DNA from: Beroe forskalii
Lineage: Eukaryota; Ctenophora; Nuda; Beroida; Beroidae
Direction of reading: 5' to 3'
Length of the DNA: 64,000 nucleotides
Assembly: GCA_011033025.1 (NCBI GenBank)
Contig: WFMF01000170.1
Span: 292,896-356,895 of the forward strand
Shown: piece by piece, positions 2,709 through 33,050 of the stretch
Numbering within the stretch: position 1 is the stretch's first letter
How the letters are laid out: the number at the start of each line of letters is the position of its first letter
Program-made: the position numbers and the translations under genes
The notes under the pieces: model-generated
What the model saw: only the letters and a program-made list of their open reading frames with translations
What the model was told of the DNA's origin: nothing
Databases searched by the model: none

Positions 2709-5700
2709 ATGGATTGGAGCGATCATATATTTCTGGAATCCTGGATGAATGTGTACCCCAAGAGCATTCCTAAAAGAAAAATCAAAGTGGTAAGATCTGA
2801 AAATTCAATCACTACAAACATACATAACCCCAACTTCAAAGTATTTATTCGCCTTCATCCTTCATGTACTGATGAAATAGAACTTAAATCTGATGAATAT
2901 GGAACTTTGAACTCTATTAATAAATTCAAGTTCAGTGGAATATTCACCAGACATGATAGCACCACGAGTATTTATGAGAAAACAATTGGTGATATATTGT
3001 CTAATGATAAATATGACGGCAAAAATGTGACATTATTTTGTTATGGAGCAACTGGGACAGGGAAAACATACACATTGGTTGATGAAAAAGCTGGGTTGAT
3101 TCAAAAGACAGTGATGCAACATCTCAAATTTCCATTGAAGATTAGTTGTGTACAAATCTACAAAGAAGAAGTTACTAGTCTACTTCATATTGATAGCACA
3201 AGTCCAAGTTTTACTGTGGATCCAAAAGTGGAAACAGATTATCAGCCATCTGAAAAAATTCAAGTGGATGTATATTCAGTTGAAGATGCAATGAAATGCA
3301 TAAAAATAGGAAGTAAGAACCGTGTAACAAGAGGGACTGAATTCAACTCAACATCATCTCGTTCACATATGATACTTACATTTTATAATGATACAAATCA
3401 AATAAATTTTGTGGATCTTGCTGGATCAGAGAAATATACAACTCAAGATTTAGAGGAGACAGCTTCAATAAATAAAAGTTTACTTGTATTGCGTAGAGTT
3501 GTGTCTTGCTTATGCAATAAAAGTTCTCATGTACCATACAGAGATAGTCTACTAACAATGTTTCTTAGGAACAGTCTTGGAGGTACTGTATATATATTCA
3601 TGATTTTTGATATTTCATGTTTCTTAATTTCATGTTACTGAAGTATCTCAATTACAATTCTGTAAAAGAGTAGACAAAGTCTAGACAAATTTATACAAAA
3701 TCCATGGACTATTGCTAGTTGCATTGGTATATAGTTATTATAATCATTAATAGCTAATCATTAATAGCTGAATGTAAGAGTAAATACAACTAAAAACATT
3801 TTCAGGAAAATATTTATTTCAGGCAACTGTGTAACTCTATTATTAGCTACAATTGGTGGTACCAAAATAGATGAAATTCAAAGAACACTTAAGTTTTCTG
3901 CTAAAGCTAGTTTCATTGAAAACAAGGTTGAAAACATTGAAAAGATTCAGGTTATCAGAGAGGACATGGAGAAAAAGGGAAGTAATTTTAATGTTTCTTC
4001 AAAGTTACATAAAGTAGAATGTGGATTATATTGTCTAGATGGTGTTCATGTACACATTATAGGCCATGATAGTTTAGAAACAGCACAGTTAGTTGTAATT
4101 CTACTTCATGGGTCTCCTGGAAATTCAAAGTTCTTCAAAGATGACTGGTTACAGTTTGAAAAACACAAAATCTATGGAATTGCCATAGATATGCCTGGCT
4201 ATGGACTGTCAAATAAGGTTGCAAAACTTCCAAGCCATAGTTCTAATAATCTTGACAAAAATGGTCCTGTTGATATTGTGAACAAAGTAATGACTGCTTT
4301 TTGTTTACCTAAGGTAAGTATTTTTGGTTTTGATTGGGGAGGTGGAATTGCATTATCTATGGCAGAACAATTTCCCTCTAAAGTGGCATCTGTTGTTGTC
4401 TTTCATGGTATGACTAATGCTGATAAATTCAGATTAAAATGTAAGCCAACACTGCTGTGGGTGAAATCAGATCAGTTCCATCCAATCAAGGTATGCCTCA
4501 TGATGATATTGTCATCAATTTTTGAGTTGATATCAAAGCTTTTCAATACACAGTTATAACCATGATATTGTATAGATAATCTTTAATATAAAGGAAAGAG
4601 GCACTTCTACGTTTGTTCTTGAATAACTGACCCAAATGGAGCTAAAAAGCTGCGATTTTTTGCAAGGCGGTAGAAAATGTCTAAACTTAAAAGATAGCAT
4701 GGCCAAAAATAGGATTCAGGCTTTAGATTTTTCGTAAATAACGTCCAAAGTCCGAAAAATCCACCCTAAAAAGAAGATCGAGTTCTAGGTTAAATTCACC
4801 AGTTGAGCGCGTTGCTATGGTTATTGATTGCGCGCGCTAAACTGCACGTGCATTTTAACGAAGCATTTGCCATTTCGTTACTGTGTACTTTGGAAACGTT
4901 TCAACTGAACTTTAAAGTCATAATTTACGTATTTACGTTCTCAATGGAATTTTCGAGTTTGGTAAAAAGTTTACGACAGAAGCATATCAACTCTAATCAC
5001 TATTGTAGGAGAAAAGGTAAGAGTTGAACAATTTGTTCCATTGTGAAAATCAGCGATAATTGTTTCGTATGAAGATATTTGTAGCTTCGATTGTTTGCTG
5101 CGGGGATTTGACAGAAGGAGGAATTTATAATTACTCAAGTTAGAAGTAGGTTCTAAACAGATGAAAATGCGGACAATTTTGATTTCAATGAGCGTGGATT
5201 CAAATTTGTTACCCATCTTTTCTCCGAATCTGAATTTTGGATTAGAAAACGGTCATTGTTCTTGAGTTCTTCTTATTTAATGTTGTGTCCTCGACATTAA
5301 TTTACAATCGCAAAATCTGCAACATTTTTATTTATATTCAAGTCCTATGTAAATATTATGTAATTTCGTTACGTTGCACCCCTACCCCCAGCAACAAAAA
5401 ATTGCATCAATGACTTCGTTCAATTTATTGTACGTCCAACTGTATATACGTCCAATTAAAGTTAGGAGTGGGTTAAAAACAGATGAAAATGCGTACAATT
5501 TTGATTTCAATGAGATTGGATTCAAATTTGTTGCTCATCTTTTCTCCGAATCAGAACTTTGGATTATAAAACCATTGTTCTTGAGTTCTTCTTATTTACT
5601 GTTATGTGTCCTTGACAATTGACATTAGATCGCAAAATCTGCAATATATTTTGATTCATATTCAAATCCTATGTAAATATTTCGTAATTTCGTTACGTTG

Positions 5701-8700
5701 CACCCCTACCCCCAGTAACAAAAAATTACATTAATGACTTCGTTCAATTTATTGTACGTCCAACTGAATATATACGTCCAATTAAAGAGAAAACCCAACG
5801 GGTTTTCTCGTAGGTATATATTATAATAACCTTCTGAATTTTGTCTAAAGTATAAGAAAAGTGACTTCAAGTGAAAAGTCATTCAATCAACCAAATAATT
5901 TCTACCTTATGGGACACATTTATAATGTACGAAATTTGTGGATTTTTCGAAAAACACCAAAGAAGAACACCAATTTTCAAAAAGTGGAAACAGAAGTCGA
6001 AACACTATTCCTAACCATAACCCTAACCATTTCCCTAAACCTGAATGTTTATGGCCAGGATTAGGTTTAGCCAAGATGGTTAGGGTTATGGTTGGGATAT
6101 AAGACAGTAATAGCACTTCCAATTCTGTATTCACTTTTTGAAAGTCGATCTGTTCCCAGTCTGCCTAATATTGAACCCATGGACTCAAAACCACCATGTA
6201 AATGTTGGTTCATGTCCTAGCCAAATGATTATTTGACTCGTGTCTTTTAGGGATCGTTCACATATTACGTAATCAGCCGAGGGGGGGGAGGGGGTTTCCA
6301 AATGATTACGTTTGATTACGAGGGGGGGAGGGGGGGTTTGGCCAATGATTACGTAATCAAAATATCTAAATTTTCATGAAAATTTCAAGGATTTTTATGA
6401 AAATTTCACGAATTTTCATGAAAATTTCAAGAATTTTCATGAAAATTTCAAGAATTTTTTATGAAAATTTAAAGGATTTCCGAATTTTCATAACCAAAAA
6501 TTAACCATTTGCAGAAAAAATTGCCAAAATTTCATAGTTATGATTAAAACATGATCTACTCTAACAAAATATGGTTCAGAATGTATAGTTCCTCTAGTGC
6601 TGCTCATATTGATATAGGAGGGATGTACTCCATTCGTTGAACTCTTCCAAACCACTCCACTTCCAGTGCCTCTCATAAATAAGGTTTGCTGCTCTGTGCT
6701 TGATCAGAGGTTCGGAGGCCTTTCTTGCCGTAGAGTTGACGCCAGAGCAGGTCTTGGCGTACATCCGCAGCTCCATTATCCAGGAATCAATCTTTTTGAT
6801 GAAGGTGTAGGAAGCTGCAGTTGTCTGTGAAGTTGCCAAACTCTGATCTGGAACTTAGGGGCTAGGGATGATCTGGATCTTGGGTTCTGTCGGCTTTGGT
6901 GGCAGATGAGCAGGACACGGATACTGAACTTTGGTTCCATCGGTTTTGAAGGAGGTTGAGGTGGGACCAAGACGTTGATTTCTGGCTCTTTAGTGGAACT
7001 GGGGGCCTCAGGTGTAGAGGAGGAGGAGGATGATCTGTTGGAAGTAAAGGAGGATGATGAGCAGATGAGGATGTGTTGGAGGAAGAGAAAGAGGAGGAGG
7101 TGTCCATCTCATTGTCAGAGGAGTTGTCGTAGGCGAGATTTCCGTAGGAAAACTAAAAGAAGCTTTGAATGTCATCTTCAGGTCGATTATGTTGATGATT
7201 GAATTGAAACACACGATACTGTTCTATTTCTAATTTTTGTCAGTTAATATAGTTTTTGGTGACGTCAAAAAAAAACTGAAGGAGGGGGGGGGCCATGATT
7301 ACGTAATATTTTCCGAAAAGAGGGGGTTTGGCCATTACGTTTGATTACGGAGGGGGGAGGGGGTAAAAATGCCCAAAAATTGATTACGTAATATGTGAAC
7401 GATCCCTTACTAAATTTTGTCTTCCACTAATTGAACCATCAATGATGGTTCAATTGATAGGAGTTAAACTATATGGCTAGGACATGAACCAACATTTTGA
7501 TGGTGGTTTTGAGTCCATGGGTCCAATATTGGGCAGACTGGGAAAACATCGACTTTCAAAAAGTGGAAAGAGAGTGATGGTCCATTATATTATAATGTTA
7601 CTGTCACTTTCATATTTTGATATCTATATGCTCTCAGTGCATATTAACTGAACTTTTGTTCTTTCAGCTTGCTCGTACTTTGAAAGCAAAAACTGGTGGT
7701 ATTTTACACGAGTTCGATGTTGGAAGATTTAGAACAGATTACGATGCTTGTTATTACTGCTGTCACGATAAAATGGTTCCCCTTGCATTAGAGGGACTGA
7801 AAAAGAATATAACAAAAATATCAGCATCTCGACTCCAAGATGAAAATACAACATTTCTAACTTCTGACAATGGTCTCGATAAGGAAAAACAACCAAATGC
7901 AGGGGATTCTTTGACAAATAAAAAGCTCCGTGATATATTTCACAGAATAATGTCCGAGACAATAGACAGTAATTCCAAAATGAACACTATAAAATGGATT
8001 GGTATATTCAGAGATTGTTTCAATGAACAACTATTGCCGTTTCTTTATGGTATCTATCTTGGCAAGATTGATATCCATGATCAATTCAAACCTGCATGTA
8101 CAAAATTGTTTGGACAGTTACCTTGTCTTTATGACATCAGTGGTGAAATTACATCAAGTAAATTGCATCAATGGGGGATATGGTCTAAACCTTACTCTGA
8201 ATATGTTTGCCAGGAATTCTCTAATTGTGAAAGGTCCAATAAACGCTTTGACTCAATTTTCACTAATGAGAAGACTTTAGATTATTTTTACAAGCCAGGG
8301 AGGCATGTGTTCTTCAGGGGATCTGGGGTTAGTAATATAGCATCTGATTTATCCACTATGAAAACCGATGCCGACGAATTTGGAAATGCCCAGGCTGTTA
8401 CAGAAAAGTTCCGAGGAATTGGTATTCTTGAACAGCTGGAGTCAAATGATGAATTGTGTGTTGTTTCAACAAAATGCAATGACTTCAAGAGCACCAAACA
8501 AATCAAAATTCCTAAAACAATGCTGTGGGAACAGAATAATCCTACTTGGCTTAAATGTGCAAATAATAAATTGTGTCTTGAAGACGGTATAAAAGCAAAC
8601 TATGATTCATCACTGATGAAAGCAAGATTAATAGAGTTGATGTTCCTGCTTGAGGGTTGTAAGACCCAGGAAGAAATGGTACACAAAGTGGAGCTTATGA

Positions 8701-9240
8701 TGAACATGACTTGTCTTTATGAGGGTCTTGATAGGTCACGTTATTGCAGGTGCGAGGATCCTGCCAAATTATCAACTTATGGCACAGGTCATTGTCATGG
8801 GTTAACATCCGTGTTTACATCACTGCTGTATCCTTTTCAACATTTGCTGGGAATTTACATGAGGTATGTTCTCGAAAATAACAGATGGGCATGTAATTAA
8901 GTGCTCAATGGGTCACTGCTTGTCCATTTGTCTTTCAACTTTCGACTAGTTTACATGAATATCACACATGATTGGACCTAATTGATTGTATTTATGCAGG
9001 TATACCGGTGGGTTTCATGCTAAATGTGACAAAGTGGATGACATGGAAATTTCTAACTGCATTGAAAATCACCAATGGCTCGAGCTTACATTCTACCCAT
9101 CATTCAAGCTGAACATTGTGGATCTAGTGCAAGCAGTTTCTGACAAGAAATTCATATGCCATCATACCTTGGATGCTTATTCTGATCCTAGAAATATACT
9201 TTATGGAAATGGAAAATTGATTATTGATAGCTATGTCTAA
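2709..9240 (+). CDS. Kinesin motor / alpha-beta hydrolase / transglutaminase-like fusion protein
   Basis: Exons 2709-3582, 3823-4490, 7668-8863 and 9000-9240 join through GT-AG introns with matching phases and give 992 residues. An in-frame TAG lies just upstream of the ATG (2695-2697), which supports the start. Residues 1-335 form a kinesin motor: P-loop GATGTGKT (113-120), switch I NSTSSRSH (213-220), switch II VDLAGSE (235-241), and the PYRDS segment. Exon 2 then runs without a break from the last motor helix into an alpha/beta-hydrolase fold: HGSPG at 387, DMPGYG at 414, nucleophile elbow GFDWGG with Asp462, and acid-loop Asp508. The expected catalytic His near 534 is Arg (GRF). Residues about 570-870 are unrecognised. 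Residues 885-960 carry GHCHGL (Cys890), NHQWLEL (His937) and Asp954, which resemble a transglutaminase-like triad (weaker inference). No coiled-coil stalk is seen, so the motor may not dimerise as usual. Confidence 0.85.
5135..5790 (+). repeat. Tandem repeat, about 325-bp unit, two copies
   Basis: Copies at about 5135-5462 and 5463-5790 share the order TTAGAAGTAGG-like start, GATGAAAATGCG, a TTTTCTCCGAATC block, and CGTTACGTTGCACCCCTACC followed by GTACGTCCAACTG. The copies differ by scattered substitutions and small indels, so the duplication is not recent. Confidence 0.8.
6134..7563. mobile_element. Outer inverted-repeat element, interrupted by a Harbinger-like insertion
   Basis: About 90-bp arms at 6134-6223 and 7474-7563 are reverse complements. 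Each arm contains the CTTTTTGAAAGTCGAT end, a CCCAGTCTGCC block and GGTTCATGTCCTAGCCA. Most of the interior is occupied by a second element with its own termini. This is a foldback or MITE-type repeat; no transposase was recognised. Confidence 0.7.
6250..7406. mobile_element. PIF/Harbinger-like non-autonomous element with TTA target duplication
   Basis: Terminal inverted repeats begin GGGATCGTTCACATATTACG. TTA flanks both sides (6247-6249 and 7407-7409), matching the 3-bp TWA duplication typical of PIF/Harbinger elements. Just inside each end lie G-rich tracts and repeated GATTACG motifs. The centre (about 6560-7230) shows only short minus-strand open stretches of up to 81 codons, none recognisable as a transposase. 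A degenerate piece resembling the right end occurs at about 59068-59140. Confidence 0.7.
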
Positions 9241-12471: not shown

Positions 12472-12870
12472 TCAATATTCAAATACTGATTCCTGAGGTT
12501 TCTTACCAGTCTCCCCTCGTTTTTCTGTTGAATCCCCCTGCTCAGATGACATTACTTTTTCTTGTTCACTTTCCTCTGTACAGCAAATTTCACCCCTTCT
12601 AATAAAAAACTTCTTCATTGGGTGATCGGCAATTTTCCTTTTCAACTCCTGAACCAGTTTGCGTCTCTCAGCACGTTCTTCAGGGCTCTTGTCTAAGCCA
12701 ATGAAGACAGTCCCATATAGCTGATGTCCCTTCAGTTTCTTTGCCACTTTCAGAACCTCAAAGACTGTATCTGTGTTTTCCACTGTAACACGGACTGGTC
12801 TTTTACCTTCAGTTCTACCAAACCGAGCAGCGGTATACTTTGGTTTGAGGATTGGGCATTGAGCCAACTG
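12472..12870 (-). pseudogene. LINE-type ORF1 C-terminal fragment
   Basis: The minus-strand frame contains RPVRVTVENTDTVFEVLK, SPEERAERRKLVQELKRKI and FFIRRGEICC. These resemble the C-terminal part of ORF1-type proteins of non-LTR retrotransposons and related repetitive proteins of invertebrates (recognised from memory, no search run). It is fused directly downstream of a gag fragment. The family's upstream portion is represented by the broken ORF at 61699-62289. Confidence 0.6.
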
Positions 12871-13291
12871 AGTTCGCTTGTTGTTCATCTAAATCACAGT
12901 TCAATACATTTTGAGCAGCGGATGCTTTCATGAATGAGACATTATACTGTTCATCTACGCGCTGAGAAGCTTTTTTCAGTTCAGAACGGACTTTAACGGT
13001 GGCTTTGAGCTCTTTAAGTGTATTAATAACACGCGCCTTAAACTCTTTCCACGTATCGCAGTCCAAGCCCAAGATATCTTTAAACGGCAATAAAGGCTCG
13101 ACAAATAGCTGTATGGATATCTTACTTGAGTCGAAGACTTCTGGTTTTCTACTTCCTGCTACGCCCGCTCTGAATTCGTCCCTCACTGCTGCTGCCACCT
13201 CGGCGTTGACTTGCATGGCGTGTGCTGCTTTGATGGCGTCTCTCTGCTCTGTCGTCAACGTTTGCTCCAGTGCGGCGATTGCTTCGTCCAT
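12815..13291 (-). pseudogene. gag fragment of the LTR retroelement, internally deleted
   Basis: The N-terminal 110 or so residues match the gag at 17172-18371 closely (shared QRDAIKAAHAMQVNAEVAAA). About 90 residues present in that copy, between its ASQREDE and QCDAILKAP segments, are missing here. The frame loses identity after SMPNP, where it passes into the ORF1-like fragment. There are no zinc knuckles, so it cannot encode a working nucleocapsid. Confidence 0.8.
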
Positions 13292-13433
13292 TATTTCGAG
13301 AAGAAAGAAAAGGTTAGTGGCGTACTAATACTCTCAAAATCAACGGAGAATGATTACACGTAGTGCCACACTATAAATTGATGTGTGCAACCCAGGTTCA
13401 GAATACGACTAAATCCTGGTCGCAGCACCAATT

Positions 13434-17171: not shown

Positions 17172-18371
17172 CTAGTTTTTTGGCTCTGCGGTACTGATAA
17201 TGTTTTTCTCAGTCTCCAAGCGTTTGCTCGCCGCTCCAGGACCGGATCCCAAGCTTTGGTGAGGCTTATTATTGGAGCTAGCAGTAATTGGAAGATCAAG
17301 CTGGGCCTGGCGTTCGATGACAACATTAGAGGTCTGGGCCTGTGCGGGACTATGAGGTTTAGAAGATTGAGCTGATGAACTCTGATGACAGGCCTGAGCT
17401 TGCAGCTTCTTCTCCATATCCCTGATCCTCGACCTACATACACGAGCGACATGATTCTTCTTGTGGCAATAATGACATATAATAATTCCACGTTTTTGAT
17501 TGCCTTGGCTATTTCTAAAATAGGAAAGCTGATTTACATGGTGCACGAGCGGTCTGCTGTGGCTGCCATTAGGACAGTAGTTGATTTTCTGAGAATGCAA
17601 ACACTGGAAAGAATAGTGCCCAGGCTGGTGGCATTTGTAGCAAATAACAGACTGAACATGAACGACAGAACAAGGATCAGGCATTGAGTCAACTGTGTTC
17701 GCTTGCTGTTCCTCTAAATTACAGTTCACTTCATTAGGAGCAGCTGCAGGTGCTTTCAGGATCGCATCACACTGTTCGTTGGACTTCATAGTTTCTGCGG
17801 GCCCATACGATGCATCACGTCGAATAGCTTCAGTTAGTAAGGTGTTAAAGTCGATATTAGCATCATCACGCATGTTAATTAAGTGAACGGCTAATTCATC
17901 GCGACTAACACCAGCTGATAACGCGTCCTTCAATGCAAAGTCACGGGAAGGGTTGTCTCCTAGGCCTGGAAAACCAGTCTTACCCAACTGTCTCAATCGC
18001 TCGCCAAAATCAGAGACGGTCTCATCTTCGCGCTGGGAAGCTTTTTTCAGTTCAGAACGGACTTTAGCGGCGGCTTGGAGCTCTTTAAGTGTAATAATAA
18101 CACGCGCCTCAAACTCTTTCCACGTTTCGCAGTCTAATCCAAAGATATCTTCAAACGGCAAGAAAGGCTCGACGAATAGCTGTATGGATATCTTACTTGA
18201 GTTGAAGACTTCTGATTTTCTACTTCCTGTGACGCTCGCTCTGAACTCGTCCCTCGCTTTTGCTACCGCTGCTGCTACCTCGGCGTTGACTTGCATGGCG
18301 TGTGCTGCCTTGATGGCGTCTCTCTGCTCTACTGTCAACGTTTGCCCAAGTGCGGCGATCGTTTCATCCAT
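17172..18371 (-). CDS. gag: Gag polyprotein with two CCHC zinc knuckles
   Basis: 399 residues on the minus strand, starting about 125 bp after the primer-binding site. The N-terminal part is helical and Ala-rich, and the middle has a capsid-like helical region (TWKEFEARVIITLKELQ). Two CX2CX4HX4C knuckles follow: CYKCHQPGHYSFQC and CHYCHKKNHVARVC. The C-terminus is Ser/Gln-rich and low complexity. The order LTR-PBS-gag-protease remnant fits a Ty3-like LTR retrotransposon. It could package RNA but depends on another element for polymerase and integrase. Confidence 0.85.
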   Translation of the reverse strand: MDETIAALGQTLTVEQRDAIKAAHAMQVNAEVAAAVAKARDEFRASVTGSRKSEVFNSSKISIQLFVEPFLPFEDIFGLDCETWKEFEARVIITLKELQAAAKVRSELKKASQREDETVSDFGERLRQLGKTGFPGLGDNPSRDFALKDALSAGVSRDELAVHLINMRDDANIDFNTLLTEAIRRDASYGPAETMKSNEQCDAILKAPAAAPNEVNCNLEEQQANTVDSMPDPCSVVHVQSVICYKCHQPGHYSFQCLHSQKINYCPNGSHSRPLVHHVNQLSYFRNSQGNQKRGIIICHYCHKKNHVARVCRSRIRDMEKKLQAQACHQSSSAQSSKPHSPAQAQTSNVVIERQAQLDLPITASSNNKPHQSLGSGPGAASKRLETEKNIISTAEPKN

Positions 18372-18495
18372 TGTTTCGAGAAGAAAGGAAAGGTTAGTGA
18401 CGTACTAATGCTATCTCAAAATCAACAGATTATGAGTAAAACGTCGTGATACACTATAAATTGATGTGTGCAACCCAGGTTCAGAATACGACTAA

Positions 18496-20945: not shown

Positions 20946-21838
20946 TTACCTCAGTAGTGCTGCTACAAGTCGTAACCCCGCAGTTAGGGGTGCCGACTGC
21001 AGCTCTCTCACTCCGTGTTACGGAGCTCTCACTGGTCGAATGTCCGGGGGTTGAGATGCTACCCTCCTCGGGGGTGAAGAACATGGAATTCGGTGAGGAG
21101 AGGCCAGGTGTTAGCTGAACTGGGCTGCTGGAAGTCCCTTCGTCAACAGGGCTGAGAATGAGACCGTTGGAGAGTTCAATGGAGAGGGAGGGGAGGTCGA
21201 GGGGAGGTTGCGAGGGGAGAGAGTGGGGAGGGAGTGAGTGGGGAGGGAACGAGTGGGTGGAGTCTGAGAAAGGGTCGGGGGTGCTCCGCTCCGATCTGGC
21301 AGGGGAGAAAGGATCTTCCTCTTCTGCTATCGCATCGTCAGTGCTTTCACCGTGAGTAGGCACAGACGTGTGTCTGAGCAGGGGCACTGAGGTCCGCTGC
21401 GGGGAATGAGGATGTGAGTAGTAGTAGTAAGATCAGAATCTAAATATTTGGACAGCTCTAGACAATCAAGCTCGCTAGGGAGGGTGTTTATCACTTCATC
21501 AGTCCATCAGATTCGTAACAGAGTTACATTGTTAGATCATGTAAACACTTACAGGAGGGGCAGTAGAAGAAAAGGGAGGGGCTATGATGGGTCTCAGTCC
21601 TTCCTCATCGCCATGTAACTCCTGTAACTCACTCAGCTGCTTCTCACAGAAAAACTTCAATATGCTCACCTGGTGAAGGGTTTCATAAGACAATATTGAA
21701 GGAATTGACCAATGAAGGTAGCGACCCAATGAGGCCTCGTACGCTAATGTAACGAGACAAAGATGATAGTAGGCTTGAAGTGAGCGTCAACTTCAAGCGA
21801 CAATTCCCCGGGTATTTTGGCTACAATTTGAATACCAT

Positions 21839-21942
21839 TATACTTCGCGTATTAGTAATCCGCCGGGCTATGCATCTTTTCTAGCGCGCAACAGTACTTA
21901 GTGACGTCATATGCCCGGCGGATTAATAATACGCGAAGTATA
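21839..21942. mobile_element. 104-bp MITE-like element, left arm only
   Basis: The ends are inverted repeats of about 30 bp (TATACTTCGCGTATTAGTAA and its complement with one change, each continuing into TCCGCCGGGC). TA dinucleotides border it. The corresponding right-arm intron near 56780-56850 lacks it, so it inserted after the arms separated or segregates between haplotypes. Confidence 0.75.
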
Positions 21943-23854
21943 GATGCAGATGCAGACGCAGACGTCTCCTTCAGATCTTCAACAGATTTACCTTGTCGCA
22001 GGTGTTGCCTGATCCCATTTAAAATAATGGGTCTGACCCGCAGACAAATCATACCTGCTGTCGCGTAGTGTTGGTGAGCATTTCGCAGGTAGGCTGACCA
22101 CTGCTATTGGGTGGCTTCACTACATTCGGACCAAAGAGCAGGCACAGGTTGTTCAGATCCATCTTATTCTTGGGCTGGTACTCAGCAATGCTGAAAAGGA
22201 AGGTGTTAGAGACGAAGCACAGAGGAGGGCCCTAAGGCAGCTTCACATCTTTCAATGAACTAATGACACTCAAATTCAAACCTGATCAAACGACCATAAT
22301 AGCGTATTTTAATAATTACCCTGACCCATTCCATTTCCAACCTCTTGTATCCCAAATTTCCATTTCTAATCCTTCTTCAGAAGCAGATATGTTAATCTTA
22401 CTTAATCATTCATCAATGCACTCCACAGGAAACTCACTACTTGATGTGTTGAATTAGACGGACAATGACACTGATGTTCGGCTCAGGAATGTCGCCGAAA
22501 GCATTCATCATCTTCTCTTTGTCTGACTCCTCTACAGGGAGTTATTCGTTATTTCCTTAGAATGTGAACCCAATTAGTAGAGCAACAGAGTCCCTCTTAA
22601 ACCCAATTATGGTAGAGTAAAAAGGTATCTTTTCGATAAAACGATTGAACGATACAACGAGTATACGTAGAGATTTTCAATGGCATTCAAATCATTCCAT
22701 TGAGATGCAATCCCTTCTATCCTTTGTTACCTTTGCTATCCAGGAGTTCCACGAAGTCGTGAAACATCTCCACAGGGAAGAGGGGTTTAGGGAGTTCCCT
22801 GAAGAACTGCTTGACAACTCCCGCCACCACGTTCACTTCCGCCTCAGATGCCAGGATCTCCCCGTTCCGTGCACCTGCGCAAGCAATCGCTATTATCAGT
22901 AGAAGAAACTTGTAAAAGATGGTGCAAATGAGTCTAAGTTTAGTGGGTTAGAGTAAGTATGAGTTAGTATAGTTTGATTTGGTTATGTGCAAGGCGGAAT
23001 TTGGCATCCCGTATTCCATGAGAGAGTCACAATTCACATAATCTCCTTACTTACACTCATCAAAAGCTGACTTGAGTTGTCTGATCTCCCCAAGAATTCC
23101 ACTTATTCTGTAGATGCCCTCCTCCGTAACTCCTCGCTTCTCTATCTCCCTGGTAGATTAAAGAGCTAAAACATTGGAAATCGGAATACAAACGATGGGT
23201 TGGACATCAGTTGTCCGTCGGAAGAAAATTTTTAGATTAAGGGACTTCAAATCGAGCTAAAACACTGGAACTCGAAAAAAATACAAATTAAGATTGATTG
23301 TACATCAACCGTCGGAAGAAAATTCGACTTCTCCACTGGAGGAAAAAGTCCAAGAAGACTCAAAACCTCAACTCCCCTCCAATGAATACCCTCGGTAACA
23401 CCTCACCTGAAACAGGAGTGGATGATGGGGGGTATCTTCTGACCCTCGATCAGGGCTAGCTCCTCCAGTGCAACTCCAAATGTCTGGTGCTGGGATTCCT
23501 TGCGTTGTCGGGCCATCTCCTGGGACAGCAGCTGGATCGTCAGCTTTATCTGACCCTGAAAGGAGAACATGGAAATGAACGCCATGGTGATATGCAGATT
23601 GCAACCGTGGCAATGAACTATCCAACTCAGAAGGTGAACACATTAAATTGCCATTCCTCCTACAAAGCGTCTCATGACCCACCTTGGGCTGTAGGTTGAC
23701 AGCTAGAGGCTTGGGACTGTTATCTTCTAGGCTGTGGTCCAGGAGTGTAAGCAGCTTGATTCCTATCTCCATCGGGGCAGTGAACTTCTTCTTTCCATAC
23801 GCTCTGATGCGGAGGAACTGACATGCTTGCGCCGGGATGCAGATAGTCTGAAAA

Positions 23855-24375
23855 GGAGAGAGGAGTTAGGGGAGGGAGTTAGAGAGGGTAGTTCGAGAGG
23901 GAGTGGGGGAGGGGAGTGAGGGAGGAAAGTTAGGGAGGGAAGTGTGAGAGGGGAGTTAGGGAGGGGAGGTAGGAAGGGAGTTAGGGAGGGAGTTAGGGAG
24001 GGAGTTAGGGGAGAGAGTTAGGGGGGCAGTTAGGGAGGGGAGTGAGAGTGGGGAGTGAGGGAGGGGAGTGGGGAAGGGGATGTTGGGAGGAATTGACATG
24101 CTTGTGCCGGGATACATATTGTCTGAAAAGGAGAGAGGAGTTAGGGGAGGGAGTTAGGGGAGGGAGTTAGGGGAGGGAAGTTAGGAAGGGAGTTAGGAAG
24201 GGAGTTAAGAAGGGGAGTAAGGGAGAGGAGTGTGAGAGGTGAGTAAGGGAGGGGAGGTAGGGAGGGAGTTAGGAAGGGTAGTAAGGGAGGGAGTTAGGGG
24301 AGGGAGTAAGGGAGGGAAGTAAGGGAGGGAGTGAGGGAGGGGAGTTAGGGAGGGGATAAGGAGGAGATATTATAT
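23855..24375 (+). repeat. Purine-rich minisatellite expanded at a 3' splice site (left arm)
   Basis: Irregular repeats of GGGAGTTAGGGAGGG lie next to the acceptor of the C2 exon 23683-23847; read on the gene strand they are pyrimidine tract. In its middle, 24086-24127 is a degenerate second copy of the exon start plus acceptor (TTGACATGCTTGTGCCGGGA). The right arm has only about 65 bp of such tract (54840-54904). Confidence 0.8.
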
Positions 24376-24924
24376 GGAAGGGAGTTAGGGGATTCTAATA
24401 AAACACCAGGAATCCAGGTATACCTCATCCCAGATAGGGTTGACGCTCCCCTTGGCTATCTTAGTCTTGGTCTTCTTGCACATCACCCCGTTGCAGTCCG
24501 CTTCCAGAGTGCAGTACACGTCAGGCTTAGTTCCCACCTCACCCAGATCAGTGCCACAGATCACTTGGACTAGCAACACACCTGGGCAGCACCGAGTATA
24601 AGGTTCAGTGAAAAAAATGAATATTTTCAGTGCATTAACATAAAGAATAGTGTGCTATATTTGAATAGAATATTGGATCGGCCTATGTCAAGGATCACTT
24701 CAAAAATTCCCAGCCATTAATCACAGTTTCAACAATCAAGATACCCTGCTTTGAGCTGAAGATTTATCCCGCGTATAATTCTAATATCTCACCATCGTAA
24801 AGTATCTCATCCTCGTTATCCACGTCCAGCTTTGCTATAGAGGAGTTCTTACGGAGCTGAAACACCGCACTTTGCCATCTCTTCTTAGCATAACACAGAC
24901 CACCGGACATTACACAATCGACAG

Positions 24925-26250
24925 GGCTTGCGGAACAGCTATACTAAAACAGTAGAACAGTGTTTACCACTGTTTAACAGTAGAGCAGTGTTTGTCAATA
25001 ATACAGTAGGATCATGGGTCATTGGGGAAAGTGTGGGTCTATAAACTAGTGAATACTGAATATGATAGCAGTAGACCGTGTGATAAACTTGCCAAATCAT
25101 GGCAGTTTGGAGGCATTTTTGGCAGATCAAACCAACAGCTCATCAAATTGAGGACATACATCGCAATCCGTAGCTAAACCTCTACCGACTAAACAATATA
25201 CAAACTCTGTAAGAAAACGAGTTCATGCATCCACACTAGCCAGACCCAAGAACTCCTAATTACATTAGATCTAAACACAAATTAGGTCATTTTCCGATTG
25301 TTTGCCATCCTAGTAATGAAACAATGCGGCTAATCTAGAAATCTAATTATTCTAAGTATTCAAATTTCCGGGGAAACAGGCAAGGAAGTTTAACGTCCAA
25401 AGCAGGTCTCCGATTTTTGTCTTTTGGCTAATACAGTATCCTGCAACAATGTGACAACAGTCTCAACGGCTGAAGAGTTTATCTGATGAAAACACACCAG
25501 CAAGACGAACTTGAAGATGACTCATTCATTGTGATAGATCTGTCGAGTGTCGAAGGCTTAATAACAACGGTTTCATCGCTGGATGGAAAAGTTTTCGGAT
25601 ATCGATCCTTTCTTCGCTTGAAAAGCACAGCCTCAAATACAAACAGGTGAGCATCTTGTTGGTAACTCATGTGGATTTGATGTTGCCTCCTTATCAGAGT
25701 TGCAAAGTGTACTGGAAGCTTGCTGTGACCGAGAGAAGATAGTGTTTGTACAGCAAGCAACCGTCACAACCAAAGCACGGAGTCAGCACAAGGCATCATA
25801 ACATCGTCTAGGTGAAACATAATAACTTATTTATATTTGATGCTACAACTGATAAACTCCCTCTCTTATCCTATAATGTTTTTGAAAAGCCCCCCGGTCT
25901 GGCAAAATTTTAGGGGGCCTAAGCCCATATCACCGATGAATAGGTCAAAAGGCCACATTCTCAGGAATTCCTTACGGTTTCAACATTGAAAGTGCTAGGC
26001 ATTCGTTCTAACGCACCTAATTCAGAATTTATTGAAGAAAAATAAGTTCATAGATCTAATTTATGTGTCATTGTACTATTGCGCGAAAAAAACTAATAAT
26101 GTGTAAGTTACTGGTGATGGTGGCCAAATAAAATCTCGGGAACACGAGAGCGCTTTTGTTCTCAGATTCTGTAATCAAGTTAGTAATAAAGTTTGAAGGT
26201 TAGAGGGTAGGGAGGGCCTCCACACTACGATAACAGAAGGACAAGCTCCA
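24925..26250. other. Intron region between BCR/ABR C2 exon and nested protease (left arm)
   Basis: AT-rich sequence matching 46848-48140 of the right arm in reverse. It includes a decayed 30-bp repeat near 24940-25000 that is expanded in the right arm (54045-54205). A 60-90 codon open stretch (minus strand 25479-25760; plus strand 47384-47605 in the other arm) differs at many amino acids and is not considered a gene. The protease promoter should lie just before 26251 but was not identified. Confidence 0.5.
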
Positions 26251-27378
26251 TTGTCAAGACACCACACAATGCTACTGTTTTATCTCCTCTCCACCCTCTT
26301 CACTCCCTCCCTATCTACAGAGGAGGACCACTCCTCCCAACACCTTCAGTCCGCCTTAGACTCCCCCTGCGTCCTACGTGACCTATACAAGACCTACGTC
26401 GCCAAACACCAGTACACCCGTCCACCTCATGAGGAAGTTGAGCGTTTAAAACTCTTCTCAGCAACCTTACAGCAGATCCTGCGGCTGAGAGGGGAGGTGG
26501 ACTGGGGGGTGGATGTCACTCTGGCAGCAGATCTAACAGAGTACGAGCAGGAATCTCTCAGGGGTCTGAACACCAGCTCGTTGCTGGAGGAGGCTGAGCA
26601 GGCTGATAGTCTGAGGAGTATCCTCCCTCCAGAGGACATCAGACTCTCCAGACCTCTGAAGTTCGATGAGTGGCGGCTCAATGGACAGATAGGTCCGGTC
26701 AGGTTCCAAGTGAAAGACAGCTGCTGGGCGCACGCGGCGGTAGTGCCAATAGAGGCGCAGCTTGCTGTCTACAAACACAAACTGACAGAGCTGTCTGTAC
26801 AGGAACTGTATGACTGTACGTACGGTCCGGAGGTACAGATTAACGGAAAGGGAGGGCATGCTATAGAGGCGTACAAGTACGTGTACAGGTCAGGGAGACT
26901 TGGTACCTGGAAGGAATCCCCCACAACCCTCTACCCTAAACGACACCCCTGTGAGTACGGACATAAAACCAACGCCATCACAGGGTACGAGGTGCAGGAG
27001 TGGCCGTACAAAGTGAAGCACACCGAGGATGTCATGGACCATCTCCGGGTGTTTTCTCCCATTTCAGTGAGTGTGGACTCCTCCTCCAGCTTCCTCCTCT
27101 TCTACAAGTTCGGGTCGTTTAAAGTGAACGCAGGTCAGTGCTCTGAACCAGATCATGCTATAGTGCTGGTCGGGTATACTGAGAAGGAGTACATTCTGAA
27201 GAACTCGTGGGGTGACTTCTGGGGCAGGAAGGGGTATGTGTACTGGAGGCGGGATGAAGGGGACCTGTGTGGGATGTTCGATGCAGCCTGGTATCCCTTC
27301 CTGCAGAGGAAGGGATCTCAGAGGAGGAAGAGGAGCAGTGAGGAGATTGGAGGGGATCAGTTGGATATAATTAGCTGA
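26251..27378 (+). CDS. Papain-like (C1A) cysteine protease, intronless, nested in the BCR/ABR intron (left arm)
   Basis: 375 residues. The N-terminal signal peptide is about 1-23 (MLLFYLLSTLF core; a second Met at residue 7 could be the start). Residues about 40-105 look like an I29 propeptide. The mature domain carries Cys158 in KDSCWAHAAV, His302 in DHAIVLVGY and Asn318 in KNSWGDFWGRKGY, so the catalytic triad is complete. Departures from typical cathepsins: no QGxCGSCW motif (a single Gln five residues before the Cys), loss of the usual disulfide Cys next to it, and no GCxGG. A basic tail (RRKRSS) ends the protein. It should be secreted or lysosomal. The gene runs opposite to the host gene and has AATAAA 33 bp after the stop. 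Confidence 0.9.
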   Translation: MSRHHTMLLFYLLSTLFTPSLSTEEDHSSQHLQSALDSPCVLRDLYKTYVAKHQYTRPPHEEVERLKLFSATLQQILRLRGEVDWGVDVTLAADLTEYEQESLRGLNTSSLLEEAEQADSLRSILPPEDIRLSRPLKFDEWRLNGQIGPVRFQVKDSCWAHAAVVPIEAQLAVYKHKLTELSVQELYDCTYGPEVQINGKGGHAIEAYKYVYRSGRLGTWKESPTTLYPKRHPCEYGHKTNAITGYEVQEWPYKVKHTEDVMDHLRVFSPISVSVDSSSSFLLFYKFGSFKVNAGQCSEPDHAIVLVGYTEKEYILKNSWGDFWGRKGYVYWRRDEGDLCGMFDAAWYPFLQRKGSQRRKRSSEEIGGDQLDIIS

Positions 27379-27410
27379 TAGCAAGGATCAAAACATTGTA
27401 ACTATTAATG

Positions 27411-27416
27411 AATAAA
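27411..27416 (+). promoter_or_regulatory. Polyadenylation signal of the protease gene (left arm)
   Basis: AATAAA 33 bp after the stop codon, conserved in the right arm at 45682-45687. Confidence 0.7.
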
Positions 27417-27775
27417 ACTTTCTCTGAAGCCCGATAAAGTTTTATTGTTGTTGATATTCTTATTCAGTTATTCCTGGGGTTGTGCCTATGGTTTCTTCCA
27501 CACATAAATCTCGTTATATAATATATTGTTCTTTAGGGCATATTGTTGTACAACCCTGAGCTTAATTCTATTCCATTTTAGTGTGAACAATTCCAAACAA
27601 TAAATGCCCCCAAACCCAAATGTAAAAAGATCGTTGATTGCAATTTCCACGAAAAAAGTAACGTTCGTCCTTTAACCTACATCAAAACATCAGATAACGA
27701 AAACCTCTGATGAGCAGCAAGAAAGCAAACAGTAACAAATATAGCGATACAACCGTTTACCAGGGTGGTGTATAG

Positions 27776-30700
27776 TAGGGAGGTTCAGAAATCATTTTTT
27801 TCGTCAAATAATTAGGGGTATTGTTTTAAAAGTTGACCTAGAAGTTAATGCCCAGAAAAATTTTGGCCCAAAAGTCGTTCATCTTACCCCTGCATGGTTA
27901 CGCCCTTTTTTGGGCTTCCTTATACAGGCAAAAATCGTAAAAATCGATTTTTGACCATGATACTTTCTTTTAATCCCCTTGGAAAGTGGTTACTCTAATA
28001 TAAACCGTAGGATCGTACTAAGTTTATTTTTGGTCCTGAACGAGCAGTAGGATACGCCCAACCCGTCTTTCGACCCGCCCATTTTTAAAACGGAAAATAT
28101 GTTGATATCGAGATTTTCAAAAAACAAGGATTGTTTGTTACTTAAATAGAATATTATGATATTATCAATGTTGACAAACAGCACACAAAATTTGAAATCA
28201 AATTACATCAGCTTCTTCAAATCTTTCTTCTTCTGCAGCTTGAACTTTCTGGTGGGAGTCAACGTACCACTAGTAACAGTTCTGGAAAGAGGTCTCGTCT
28301 TTGTGATCATGCCGTTGAACGTTGTCGCCCAAAGCCAAGCCCCTCTCTCAGCTGTCGTTCACAGGAGTCAGGTTATGAGAGCCTCCTTGAATCTTGTTGA
28401 ACTCGGTGAGGATCTCCAGTCAGGCGAGGATAGGAAGGAGTGTGGGACTTGGAGGAGTTTGAAGGATGGATGGGACCAACATGAAGTCAGGGAGGGAGGA
28501 GCCAGGAAGAATGGTGGGAGGAAGGTCACTGTCAGGAAGTGTGGAGATCATCTGAGCCACGTTGTTGAGGGTTTCTGTAGGTGTGGAGAGAAGAGGCAGA
28601 GTGGCAGGAGTTCTCTGTTAGAGATACCATGTGTCGCTGGGCACAGTCTCTCCGACCTCAGCAAGCTTCTTGTGGACTCTGGCTGAACTTCCTCATCCTC
28701 TGTTGGAGCTCCAGTCGCTGTGGCAGCACTGTAGAGGAGGGCTGTAAACCAGGATCTGAGGTAGAATAAGACGATGTAGAGGTCATCTTTTCAGCTGCTT
28801 CTTTCTGTACCAACCAAGGAAGGCAGGTGAGGCTGAGGAGGAGAGGGTAACTTTCAGGTGGACATTGCCTTGCTCATCCAATGGGCATGATGGTCTGCTC
28901 CAGGAGATTTGGATCTGGAAGGTAGCCCCTCTTCACTTGATGGTCCCACCAAGGACAGGGATTGACAGCTCCAGCAATTCTCTGTAGTCTCCTCTGGGAA
29001 TGAGGTGGGAGTTTGAAGGATCCAGGCACTGCTTGATGAAGGAGAGTAGGTCGGGGACTTCAGCTCTGTAGGATGCAGGGATCTGCGGTCTGGAGATGTC
29101 TGTAAGGTCCAGGGAGCTCCACTGGGGTTTCAGGAACTTGAAGAAGGACTCCTCTGGGCCGGTGGTGTCGCCAAACAGTTCCTGAAAGGTTGATCAAATG
29201 TTGTCACTTCTAGGCCAAAATTCGGTTATTAATGCATTTTCCGTTTTAAAAATGGGCGTGGTCGGAAGACGGGTTGGGCGTGGTCCTACACGTTCGGGAC
29301 CAAAAATAAACTAAGTACGATCCTACGGTTTATATTAGAGTAACCACTTCCCAAGGTGATTAAAAGAAAGTATCATGGTCAAAAATCGATTTTACTCATT
29401 TTACCTGTATAAAAATGGGCGTGGCCGAAAGACAGGTTGGGCGTGGTCCTACTCGTTCGGGACCAAAAATAAACTAAGTACGATACTGGTTTATATTAGA
29501 GTAACCACTTTCCAAGGTGATTAAAAGAAAGTATCATGGTCAAAAATCGATTTTTACTCATTTTACCAGTATAAAAATGGGCGTGGCCGGAAGTCGGGTT
29601 GGGCGTGGTCCTAGAAGTTCGGGACCAAAAATAAACTAAGTACAATCCTACGGTTTATATTAGATTAACCACTTTCCAAGGTGATTAAAAGAAAGTATCA
29701 CGGTCAAAAATCGATTTTTACGATTTTTGCCTGTATAAGGAAGCCCAAAAAAGGGCGTGGCCATGCGCAGGGGTAAGATGAACGACTTTTGGACCAAAAT
29801 TTTTTCCCTCCCCATTGGCCTATTTGTGAATACAAAAAGGCAAATGAGAGGGGTTGGCAGATCGTGGTCTGGAGGGTGAAATAGAATATGTGTATATCAG
29901 GTCCAGTTTTGCAATACAACTACTGTAATTTCTGGAAAGTGCCCGGATTGCTCCTTTATAATATCAGTCGCGAAAATGTCCTCCTCCGTCCTCCGTCCCC
30001 ATGTCACATAAATCTTCAAAATAATGAATTCATGGAGCAGTCGGTTGTCAAAGTATAAATCTTATAGGTTGATCTGGCCCATCCGTGCCGCATGCTCGAA
30101 TTCCTAAATTATGATAAGTTCTGAATTTAATTAGGCTGTTGAAGAATTCGTGTCTTAAAATTTAAAATCTTAGGTGTGAGTTGGGCGGTAGATTTGAGGA
30201 AAAGGCTTCGGTTTTGTTCTAGGTTTAGTACCAAAATGCATAAATATTAGAGTTTCTGCTGGATTCGACTAAGTTTGATTAATACTATTCGCTGTGACTC
30301 TGTGAAAGGCGAATATTGCTTATTGGAACAAGAGACAGCATTGAAACAGAAAACATAAGCACGAAGAAATTTGAAAATCAGATAAAAGTGATATCAACTT
30401 AGTATAACATTCAAGAAAATACATCGCGTGAATAAACGGTGACACAATTTGATGCGAAACGTAAACCAATTCAACAAAATGGCGCGAAATCTACAACGAA
30501 CCTAGTACAACAACGAACGCGCGCGCAAGAATTTTAGAAGAAATGGCACGTGCCAATTCGTGTCGTCGGTGGTCGCGCGCAGCACGCACATCGGAACAGT
30601 ATTTATACTCTTATTACTTTATAACGACTGCGTTTTGTATTATCTTATTATGATGCTAAGGTTACATCAAGCACCGCGGGGAGGGAAATTAAGCGCCTGC

Positions 30701-30838
30701 ATACGGCCTACGGGAACAACAATAATTGTGTCGGTGCAGGCGCAATTCTTGTTTTTGGGAGTTATTGACCCCCTAGGTCAACTTTTAAAACAATACTCCT
30801 AATCATTTGACAAAAAAAATGATTTCTGAACCTCCCTA
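27776..30838. mobile_element. hAT-like DNA transposon, 3.06 kb (left arm)
   Basis: Termini TAGGGAGGTTCAGAAATCAT form long inverted repeats of about 75 bp. The flanks are an exact 8-bp duplication GTGTATAG (27768-27775 and 30839-30846), which fits the hAT consensus nTnnnnAn. Internally there are repeated units of about 170 bp with GGGCGTGG and GACCAAAAATAAAC blocks flanking a minus-strand coding remnant. No hAT transposase motif was recognised, so it may be non-autonomous or carry an unusual protein. Confidence 0.85.
28190..29180 (-). pseudogene. Broken coding region inside the hAT-like element (left arm)
   Basis: The minus strand encodes segments ESFFKFLKPQW, LIPRGDYRELLELSIPVL and a Lys-rich end, matching the right-arm copy. 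Here the early part (through WSSLDLTDISRPQ) is in frame where the right copy has lost a base, while later parts are frame-shifted. It resembles a multi-copy invertebrate protein family of unknown function that I recognise by pattern only (HARWM, WYLTEEL, VGPRSILLF, VNDSCERVLAL). Confidence 0.65.
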
Positions 30839-30959
30839 GTGTATAGCTCAGTGGTTAAACACCCGACATGATACTATGATACAGTGTTATAACATGAGTC
30901 TGGTAATTGGGATATAACCAGATGAGATCATTGATATTTCATGTGTTGGGAGCATGATA

Positions 30960-31130
30960 GGATGGTATGCTGTGTAACGTTGTGTAATGCTGTGTAGTCT
31001 TGTGTTATGCTGTGTAATGTTGTGTTATGTAATGTTGTGTAATGTAATGTTGTGTAGTGTTGCGTAATGCTGTGTAATGCTGTGTAATGTTGTGTTTTGT
31101 AATGTTGTGTTGTGTAATGTTGTGTTGTTA
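30960..31130 (+). repeat. TGTGTAATGT-type minisatellite (left arm)
   Basis: Irregular 8-13 bp units of TGTGTAATGT and relatives. The reverse-complement array is at about 41940-42102 in the right arm, so it predates the separation of the arms. Confidence 0.9.
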
Positions 31131-33050
31131 TACTCTTATACTGACTTACTGATAAAGAAAAAAGCTAATAACGAACCAAACGCATATCAAAATATGCTAT
31201 GTACAAGCGGTTGCATATAATCATAGTTGTTAGTGTGTCGAAACAAGAGAAGCGGCTAATAATGGGGAAGCAAGAGTTTTTAGATGCTCATTCGAAAGGC
31301 AAACGACAGAATACTTCAGTGCGCATTTTAGCCACTTCAGTACCCCACACGAGGCAAGCCACCCACTGCTGACCCACTGCTGAATATAGACTGTAGTACT
31401 GGAGACGGTGTTTAAAGTCTTAGCTAAACGCATCCGCCGTAAAGGCATAAAGATAACTCATATATAACGAATGGGAATATTGAAGGTATTGGCACTCTGT
31501 ATAAGGTGTAATGATGGGGGACCTAATGTCACTCCGGTTTTATGTGACTGGGTTATTAGTTAATATAATGCAATACTGCAGTTTGGAAATGGGGTTTGGT
31601 GATCCAAGGGGAGGGGTCCCCATTTAGTTATAGTTATACGGTAACCCATTAGGATAGCTTCAACCTGTCACGAACGAAATTGGGGGTATCCCTAGCACCC
31701 TAGCACGCTGTGGCTGAACTAATCAGCAAGCAGGATTTCCATGATACTATGATACTGCAGGGCACACCCTCATTCTAAAATCAGCAGTGTGTGACAACGC
31801 CCAAATTGAACAGTTCCATATTCCTGCAGTTCATTAGCAATTGTAGTGCCTATAGGGCTCCCTTATTTGGGACCCCTTGTTATCAAACACAGTAATTCTT
31901 CTGGTGCCAGAGCTCGATTGTTATCATAATCCATTAATCCATCAAATATAAGCATTTGCATTTCCATACAAGTAAAAACTAAAGAACAACTTTACCAGAA
32001 CCTTTTTCCATTTTGAAAAGCCTTTACCGACAATGCACATTTCTTTGCCTTCAACAAAACTACCATCAGTGCGACACAACCAAAGCCACTCTCAAAGTCT
32101 TCAAGTTTGATCTAACTTTAAATTACTGAGCATAATCAATCGATTACCTGTGATGTCAAGGTCTCTATAATTAAATACCTGGATACACAACGACAGAATA
32201 AGAATCATTATTACCCTCCCGTGGCTCAAACTCCAGTGTGATAATTATCGATATATCACTCCTTCATAGAACTACTGTACAGTGGCGGAATAATAGAGCA
32301 GAATATCGTTGAATAAATTGTTGATTTTATGAAGGAGCACTCAAAATCTATAAAAACGTTGAATTCATACGAGGGTCGTCAGACCCGAGTGGGAGGGAGT
32401 ACTGTTTTGTCGGGTAATAATACAATTAACAAACTCATGGATCGTGTGGTATCGAAAATTGTCAAACTCGGCTGACGCCTCGTGTGATAATTTTCGATAT
32501 CACACTCCCATTCGTTTGTTAATCGTACACTATATACTGTGGTATTCCTAAGACTTATGAGGCAAACGACTGCGATCATAATATGCTGTTCAAGGAGTAA
32601 TAAGCATATACCTAAATACGAACCGCCAGCAATTACAGAATAATGATGATAGTGTGTCGTAAACTCATTGGTAAAATTATTTGCCGAATTACACTAGTCC
32701 CAATGAACAATGAACAACTGAAGATGTTGACTTAAACAGAATATCTGCTCACACAGCTAAACAGAGTGCCTACAGACTGACAATAACAAACAGAGTACCT
32801 ACAGACTGACAATGAATCATACCACAAAACATAAACAGAGAACAGACTGGCAAGAAATCAGATCACTAAACAAGATTTTGAGTAGCAGTATCAATTCAAC
32901 AATAAACTATAATAATAGACTGTTAATAATGATAAGACGTGATTAGCTATAATTCGAATAGAAACCGTAACGTTTTTGATGTGTAGGAACTGTAACGTTA
33001 TAATTGACGAGAAATTGAGATTTAAGTCTGAAAAGAAGGCGTCCACTTAC
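31131..33050. other. Intron sequence of the BCR/ABR copy (left arm), no gene seen
   Basis: It matches 40315-41939 in reverse. Within it, about 32207-32540 is extra compared with the right arm. This extra block carries two inverted GTGTGATAATT-TCGATAT motifs and is probably a small inserted element. Confidence 0.6.
32207..32540. mobile_element. Left-arm-specific insertion, about 330 bp
   Basis: The right arm joins AAGAATCAC directly to TACATACTGTGGTATTCC at about 40786-40806. The left arm has about 330 bp between the equivalent points. The block contains inverted copies of a GTGTGATAATTNTCGATAT motif near both ends. Exact boundaries and target duplication are not resolved. Confidence 0.55.

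Follow-up and report, generated by a model that had tools for sequence, protein, structure and literature searches.

An apparently stalkless kinesin fused to an alpha/beta hydrolase and a transglutaminase-like domain in a contig of Beroe forskalii

Introduction

A stretch of 64,000 nucleotides of contig WFMF01000170.1 of Beroe forskalii (positions 292,896 to 356,895, assembly GCA_011033025.1), here called the window, carries between its positions 2709 and 9240 a gene whose predicted product of 992 residues begins as a kinesin and continues as an alpha/beta hydrolase and a transglutaminase-like domain. Usual kinesin tails consist of stalks or coiled-coil regions and cargo-binding parts. The locus raises the questions whether the three domains belong to one protein, whether other organisms share the combination, and which of the domains would work as an enzyme. 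By sequence comparison the fusion is not peculiar to the window genome. The reading preferred here, to which we give a probability of about 0.5, is an N-terminal kinesin without a stalk, followed by an apparently capless hydrolase tail and a motor-tethered C-terminal cysteine enzyme (a peptidase or an amide transferase), in an old family that is thinly spread across eukaryotes and has kept its domain order.

With a tail of two enzyme folds, one of them bearing an invariant active site, a single chain would combine transport with catalysis. An earlier interpretation of this DNA (the original prediction) knew of no described kinesin with such an architecture, and a non-exhaustive search of the titles and abstract openings of open-licence literature agrees. 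The word 'hydrolase' has zero occurrences in the main text of Wickstead et al. 2010 (PMC2867816), and 'kinesin' is absent from the main text of a survey of papain-fold proteins (PMC10318531). Apparently this is an old kind of motor-enzyme that has gone undescribed.

Gene structure and domain order

The gene lies on the + strand and is modelled as a spliced open reading frame (ORF) of four exons (2709-3582, 3823-4490, 7668-8863 and 9000-9240). Every intron is of the GT-AG type, and the frame of 992 codons is unbroken, with a single, terminal stop. Exon 1, placed by its ORF, a GT donor and the Pfam kinesin match, encodes an N-terminal extension and most of the motor, including the P-loop, switch I and switch II. 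Exon 2, placed by its AG...GT borders, Pfam and alignment, contains what is left of the motor, the linker of roughly 45 residues and the larger part of the hydrolase with the motifs HGSPG, GFDWGG and WVKSDQFHP. Exon 3 (splice model, Pfam and alignment) comprises the end of the hydrolase, a family-specific middle region and the start of the transglutaminase-like domain with its Cys, and exon 4 (splice model and alignment) the remainder of that domain with its His and Asp and the stop codon TAA. One exon junction interrupts the motor (SLGG|NCVT), the next the hydrolase (DQFHPIK|LARTL) and the last the C-terminal domain (LLGIYMR|YTGG). Since the relatives align in continuous blocks across all three positions, the splicing of the window gene is supported by homology.

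Strong Pfam matches to Kinesin (PF00225, residues 60-321, E 2.2e-57) and Abhydrolase_1 (PF00561, residues 382-487, E 1.5e-11) bear out two of the three profile searches that had been suggested as a check; the third, Transglut_core (residues 843-944, E 0.0021), stays with 18.7 bits under its curated cut-off of 23. The fusion in one frame, as originally claimed, is upheld by the intact 992-residue model, by these matches and by the same order in relatives. The last motor helix does share one uninterrupted exon with HGSPG and GFDWGG, all of them within 3823-4490. The claim that a coiled-coil stalk is lacking is borne out only through the short linker of about 45 residues between the Pfam-recognised motor and hydrolase domains (no coiled-coil predictor was used), from which the window kinesin appears to be stalkless. 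The frame, coordinates and motifs of the original prediction are thus confirmed, and its interpretation of the architecture is supported.

Intron 2 (4491..7667, +) was found to be repeat-bearing in a repeat search. Perfect inverted repeats of 27 bases (6249-6275 / 7381-7407) lie inside an inverted repeat of 103 bases with 90% identity (6124-6226 / 7471-7573), and the nested structure (6124-7573) looks like one transposon within another. In the same intron a direct repeat of about 330 bases occurs at 5137-5787 in two copies that are 88% alike.

Relatives and distribution

At least 11 relatives were found in the protein collection, a lower bound because all three protein searches were capped, two of them having scored 7999 and 8000 candidates. 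Six of them (P0003, P0004, P0007, P0008, P0009 and P0010) contain motor, hydrolase and C-terminal module in the order of the window protein, with the first motor strands missing in P0003 and P0004; the other five are cut at the front. P0001 starts with the last motor helix (MKFAAKASFVENK), P0002 covers only the final portion of the motor and carries EF hands at its end, P0011 starts near the end of the hydrolase, and P0012 and P0013 cover part of the module and come from short contigs. Two relatives are from distant protists, where orthologues of the same domain order had been named beforehand as a check: P0004 is a putative kinesin motor domain protein of Paratrimastix pyriformis (Metamonada), and P0010 is recorded as 'Khc' of Symbiodinium natans (Dinophyceae). 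Both share with the window protein the motor, the hydrolase and the Cys-His-Asp module in the same order; they differ in being named just as kinesins, in being only 24-33% identical to it per domain, and, for P0010, in a model without the nucleophile stretch of the hydrolase. The names of P0002, P0009 and P0011 are those of transcript assemblies, and P0009 and P0002 are fused across the boundary between motor and hydrolase. P0009 has everything from a complete motor up to the module, so one relative seems to make a fused transcript.

In the module tree of 12 rows, which like the triad counts below includes P0011-P0013, the window protein pairs with P0001 (100/99) and groups with P0002, P0003 and P0007 (100/99). 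The hydrolase tree of nine rows, which like the hydrolase counts omits P0011-P0013, agrees (100/99 for the pair and 90/93 for the larger group). The shared order and a module that occurs, among the matches listed, in these proteins only are most simply read as a single fusion, which the motors do not prove. As the dinoflagellate, the metamonad and the window genome are far apart, the fusion would be either very old, with many losses, or moved between eukaryotes.

An artefact, in which adjacent genes were joined by the reader or by the assembly, or a decayed copy, would go with the long branch of the window motor (the second longest of the seven in the motor tree) and with an inverted duplication in another part of the window, a reason for some general doubt about the assembly. 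Yet the same order occurs in independent relatives, including P0009 and P0002, by which this explanation is largely refuted; one exon is common to the last motor helix and the hydrolase, and 992 codons run without a frame break. Further copies of repeats that precede the gene (within 661-2028) are present at 59.5-60.3 kb and 62.9 kb of the window, the best match covering 61 columns at 95%. As these copies are more than 50 kb distant within one contig, the gene belongs to the genome of this contig, and we consider an artefact scarcely credible.

Two further candidates, P0005 and P0006, matched with E values of 1e-4 and 9e-4 at 16% query coverage; by Pfam domains and name they are DedA/hydrolase proteins and were excluded from all counts. 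Viral contigs and prokaryote genomes scanned with the module gave 47, 4 and 44 pattern stretches and no relative by tblastn. In P0002 the module is followed by an EF-hand pair (residues 852-912), matched in none of the other family sequences scanned, which hints at calcium control added in the line of P0002.

The C-terminal transglutaminase-like domain

All 12 proteins contain, in order, the Cys-His-Asp triad of the papain-fold or transglutaminase-like superfamily. In the window protein it is formed by Cys 890 of GHCHG (GTGHCHG from residue 886; 8793..8795, +), His 937 of HQWLE (NHQWLEL from residue 936; 9070..9072, +) and Asp 954 (9121..9123, +), each invariant in 12/12, as are Gly, His, Trp, Leu and Glu positions close by. 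Compared with the modules of the eight relatives measured, that of the window protein has 27-40% identity, and identity between the deeper branches is 26-43% (nine rows measured). The predicted model of P0007 places the Cys at the start of a helix, the His right before a strand and the Asp right after the next strand, and this predicted order fits the one expected for a papain/transglutaminase-like fold.

The profile evidence is weaker. At E<=1, Transglut_core matches 8/12 whole proteins (window, P0002, P0004, P0007, P0008, P0009, P0011 and P0013), all under the cut-off. Of the modules cut out of their proteins, 6/7 match it at E<=10 (best E 0.00044), and apart from this a single module matches another family, DUF5910. 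The proposed third active site of papain/transglutaminase type has stood in its residues and fallen short in its Pfam score. In NCBIfam no match was found for P0011 and P0012 and a weak one for P0013 (Mbov_0119 family, E 0.0034, 16.1 bits against 250), and PHROGs gave zero matches for P0011-P0013. With no Pfam match above cut-off, and occurring among the matches listed only in these proteins, the module may be a new domain family.

Vasohibin, CEP76, DRC7 and CC2D2A are named as papain-fold proteins in the survey text, where the third triad residue of vasohibin is Ser (PMC10318531). Vasohibins, CEP76 and DRC7 resemble the window module in pairing a Cys-His-third-residue design with a place near the microtubule system (PMC10318531), and differ from it in that the window module is fused to a motor. 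An identity with vasohibin was rejected, as the third place holds Asp and not Ser in 12/12; the vasohibin family PF14822 is also unlisted for the window protein at E<=1 and for seven modules at E<=10, with filters in HMMER that drop weak matches.

The alpha/beta hydrolase domain

The window protein has the hydrolase fold with a nucleophile elbow, comprising HGSPG (from residue 387, +), the nucleophile Asp 462 in GFDWGG (from residue 460; 4332..4334, +) and the acid position Asp 508 in WVKSDQFHP (4470..4472, +). G(F/Y)DWG, with the nucleophile Asp, is present in 8/9 rows, the acid position is Asp in 8/9 and Glu in 1/9, and His 511 of DQFHP (4479..4481, +) is found in 9/9. The column of the usual catalytic His holds His in one row only (P0001), Lys, Arg or Pro in 7/9 (Arg in the window protein) and a gap in P0008, where a nearby Gly-His may be the counterpart. 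Because only 46 residues separate Asp 462 from Asp 508, and the top row in the structure search with P0001 (best 50 matches listed) is a hydrolase of 207 residues, the family hydrolase seems to be without a cap domain.

Haloalkane dehalogenases and epoxide hydrolases are marked by an Asp nucleophile followed by Trp, and by a cap domain before the acid strand. The Asp-Trp nucleophile is present in 8/9 rows; a conserved catalytic His after the last strand is absent, and so, it seems, is the cap. P0007 gave 21 hydrolase-type matches in NCBIfam, all far under their cut-offs; the haloalkane dehalogenase PRK00870 ranks third (E 1e-10, 41.5 bits against a cut-off of 265), below polyhydroxyalkanoate depolymerase and HsaD. 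The small fold is common to CIB-like or ABHD14-type alpha/beta hydrolases (3bdi), among which ABHD14B is of the capless type; the family hydrolase differs from these in the Asp of its nucleophile elbow (GFDWGG) and in a catalytic His that is not conserved. A deacetylase role has been described for ABHD14B (PMC9270251).

Two enzymes acting in turn, an active Asp-nucleophile hydrolase of the haloalkane dehalogenase or epoxide hydrolase kind, perhaps with the DQFHP His as base, and the C-terminal enzyme, would accord with the conserved nucleophile motif, with an acidic residue (Asp or Glu) in the acid column of 9/9 rows, with the constant DQFHP His and with the rank of PRK00870. That His, however, does not occupy the position behind the last strand where the catalytic His normally lies, there is no space for a cap domain, and the annotated model of P0010 lacks the GxDWGG nucleophile stretch, be it through a gene-model error or a real loss. 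We hold this arrangement to be quite unlikely.

The loss of the usual His in most rows would also agree with both enzyme folds being dead and serving as ligand- or partner-binding cargo adaptors, so that the motor merely carries a partner; inactive papain-fold members are known among cilium and scaffold proteins, with CC2D2A, FBXO21 and menin given in the survey text (PMC10318531). Against this stands the triad, invariant in 12/12 despite a module identity of 27-40%, a conservation that a dead domain would not need, and pure adaptors are possible, if unlikely. Judged from the alignments, the strongly kept active site is the transglutaminase-like triad, and the hydrolase has mostly lost its usual catalytic His.

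The kinesin motor

Pfam and alignment place the motor in the Kinesin superfamily. As the original prediction stated, its nucleotide motifs are intact: the P-loop GATGTGKT (residues 113-120; 3045..3068, +), switch I NSTSSRSH (from residue 213, +) and switch II DLAGSE (from residue 236, +). The motor fold and these motifs are shared with kinesin-1 and other kinesins with an N-terminal motor, from which the window protein differs in lacking a long stalk, in the linker of about 45 residues leading into an enzyme fold and in a shorter loop after switch II. Because of this shortened loop, seen in the alignment, and the second longest branch, the motility of the window motor is not assured. Motor counts and the motor tree refer to the seven rows that possess a motor. 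In a sequence search of the PDB the best matches of the family motors are mixed N-kinesins. The window motor scores 133.5 bits with P0007 against 111 bits with the best solved kinesin, and for the P0007 motor kinesin-1 (175 bits) falls between P0008 (181.6) and P0009 (160.5).

Proposed function

In the preferred reading, the ATP-driven motor head would bind to and move along microtubules, as its intact nucleotide motifs suggest. The invariant C-terminal Cys-His-Asp site would be a working enzyme on amide bonds, cutting or transferring, and its substrate could be, as a guess that fits the location, a microtubule-bound protein or tubulin itself. The hydrolase, which has kept its Asp nucleophile and mostly lost the usual base, would either offer a binding platform or form a second, unorthodox site. 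An ATP-driven motor head that bears a catalytically active cysteine enzyme is likely. Going further, the protein could be a self-propelled tubulin-modifying enzyme, a walking motor that cleaves or alters the tails of tubulin or proteins bound to the lattice and so rewrites its own track; the family would then represent a lost ancestral eukaryotic type of motor surviving in scattered lineages. We regard this as quite unlikely.

Several observations weigh against the preferred reading. Transglut_core is unmatched at E<=1 in 4/12 whole proteins (P0001, P0003, P0010 and P0012), and its top score among those listed is 19.7 bits against the cut-off of 23. The module has no solved-structure match by sequence in the PDB at E<=1. 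Structure searches with whole models (VIA-align and Foldseek, best 50 matches listed) gave only motor chains for P0007 or hydrolase chains for P0001, so the third fold is without a structural match of its own in these listings. Of the two predicted models, that of P0007 has low confidence near the His (residues 971-980, mean pLDDT 47), and that of P0001 is poor as a whole (mean pLDDT 59.6). To these points belong the missing nucleophile stretch of P0010 and the fact that, within the family, introns are visible for the window genome only. The motor of P0008 scores 234 bits with kinesin-1 against at most 194 with any family motor, and that of P0009 scores 205.5 bits with OSM-3 against at most 191; a common origin of the family motors is thus not established, and the motor tree resolves only the pair of P0003 and P0007.

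Other features of the window

Twenty other ORFs of the window were searched against Pfam, with matches to RhoGAP, Peptidase_C1 and a zinc knuckle, weak ones to Fascin and SRA1, and none for the remainder; no tRNA genes or Rfam matches were found in the window. Judged by its appearance, the genome could be that of an animal rich in repeats or of a relative. A large inverted duplication (21002-31373 and 41697-57658) has five arm pairs that are 95-99% alike and is either a real palindrome or the result of joined haplotypes. A frame of the papain family Peptidase_C1 (26197-27375, +) has its mirror copy (45723-46901, -) inside a 99% arm pair. Two gag-like look-alike frames, the longer (17175-18404, -) with weak zinc-knuckle matches and the shorter (12818-13324, -) without a Pfam match, are probably retroelements. 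Short-repeat arrays at 49297-50753 and 52396-52824 have long open frames on both strands (YTHATSIYP-like) that are probably not genes. A RhoGAP exon is located at 55552-55902 (+, E 5e-7).
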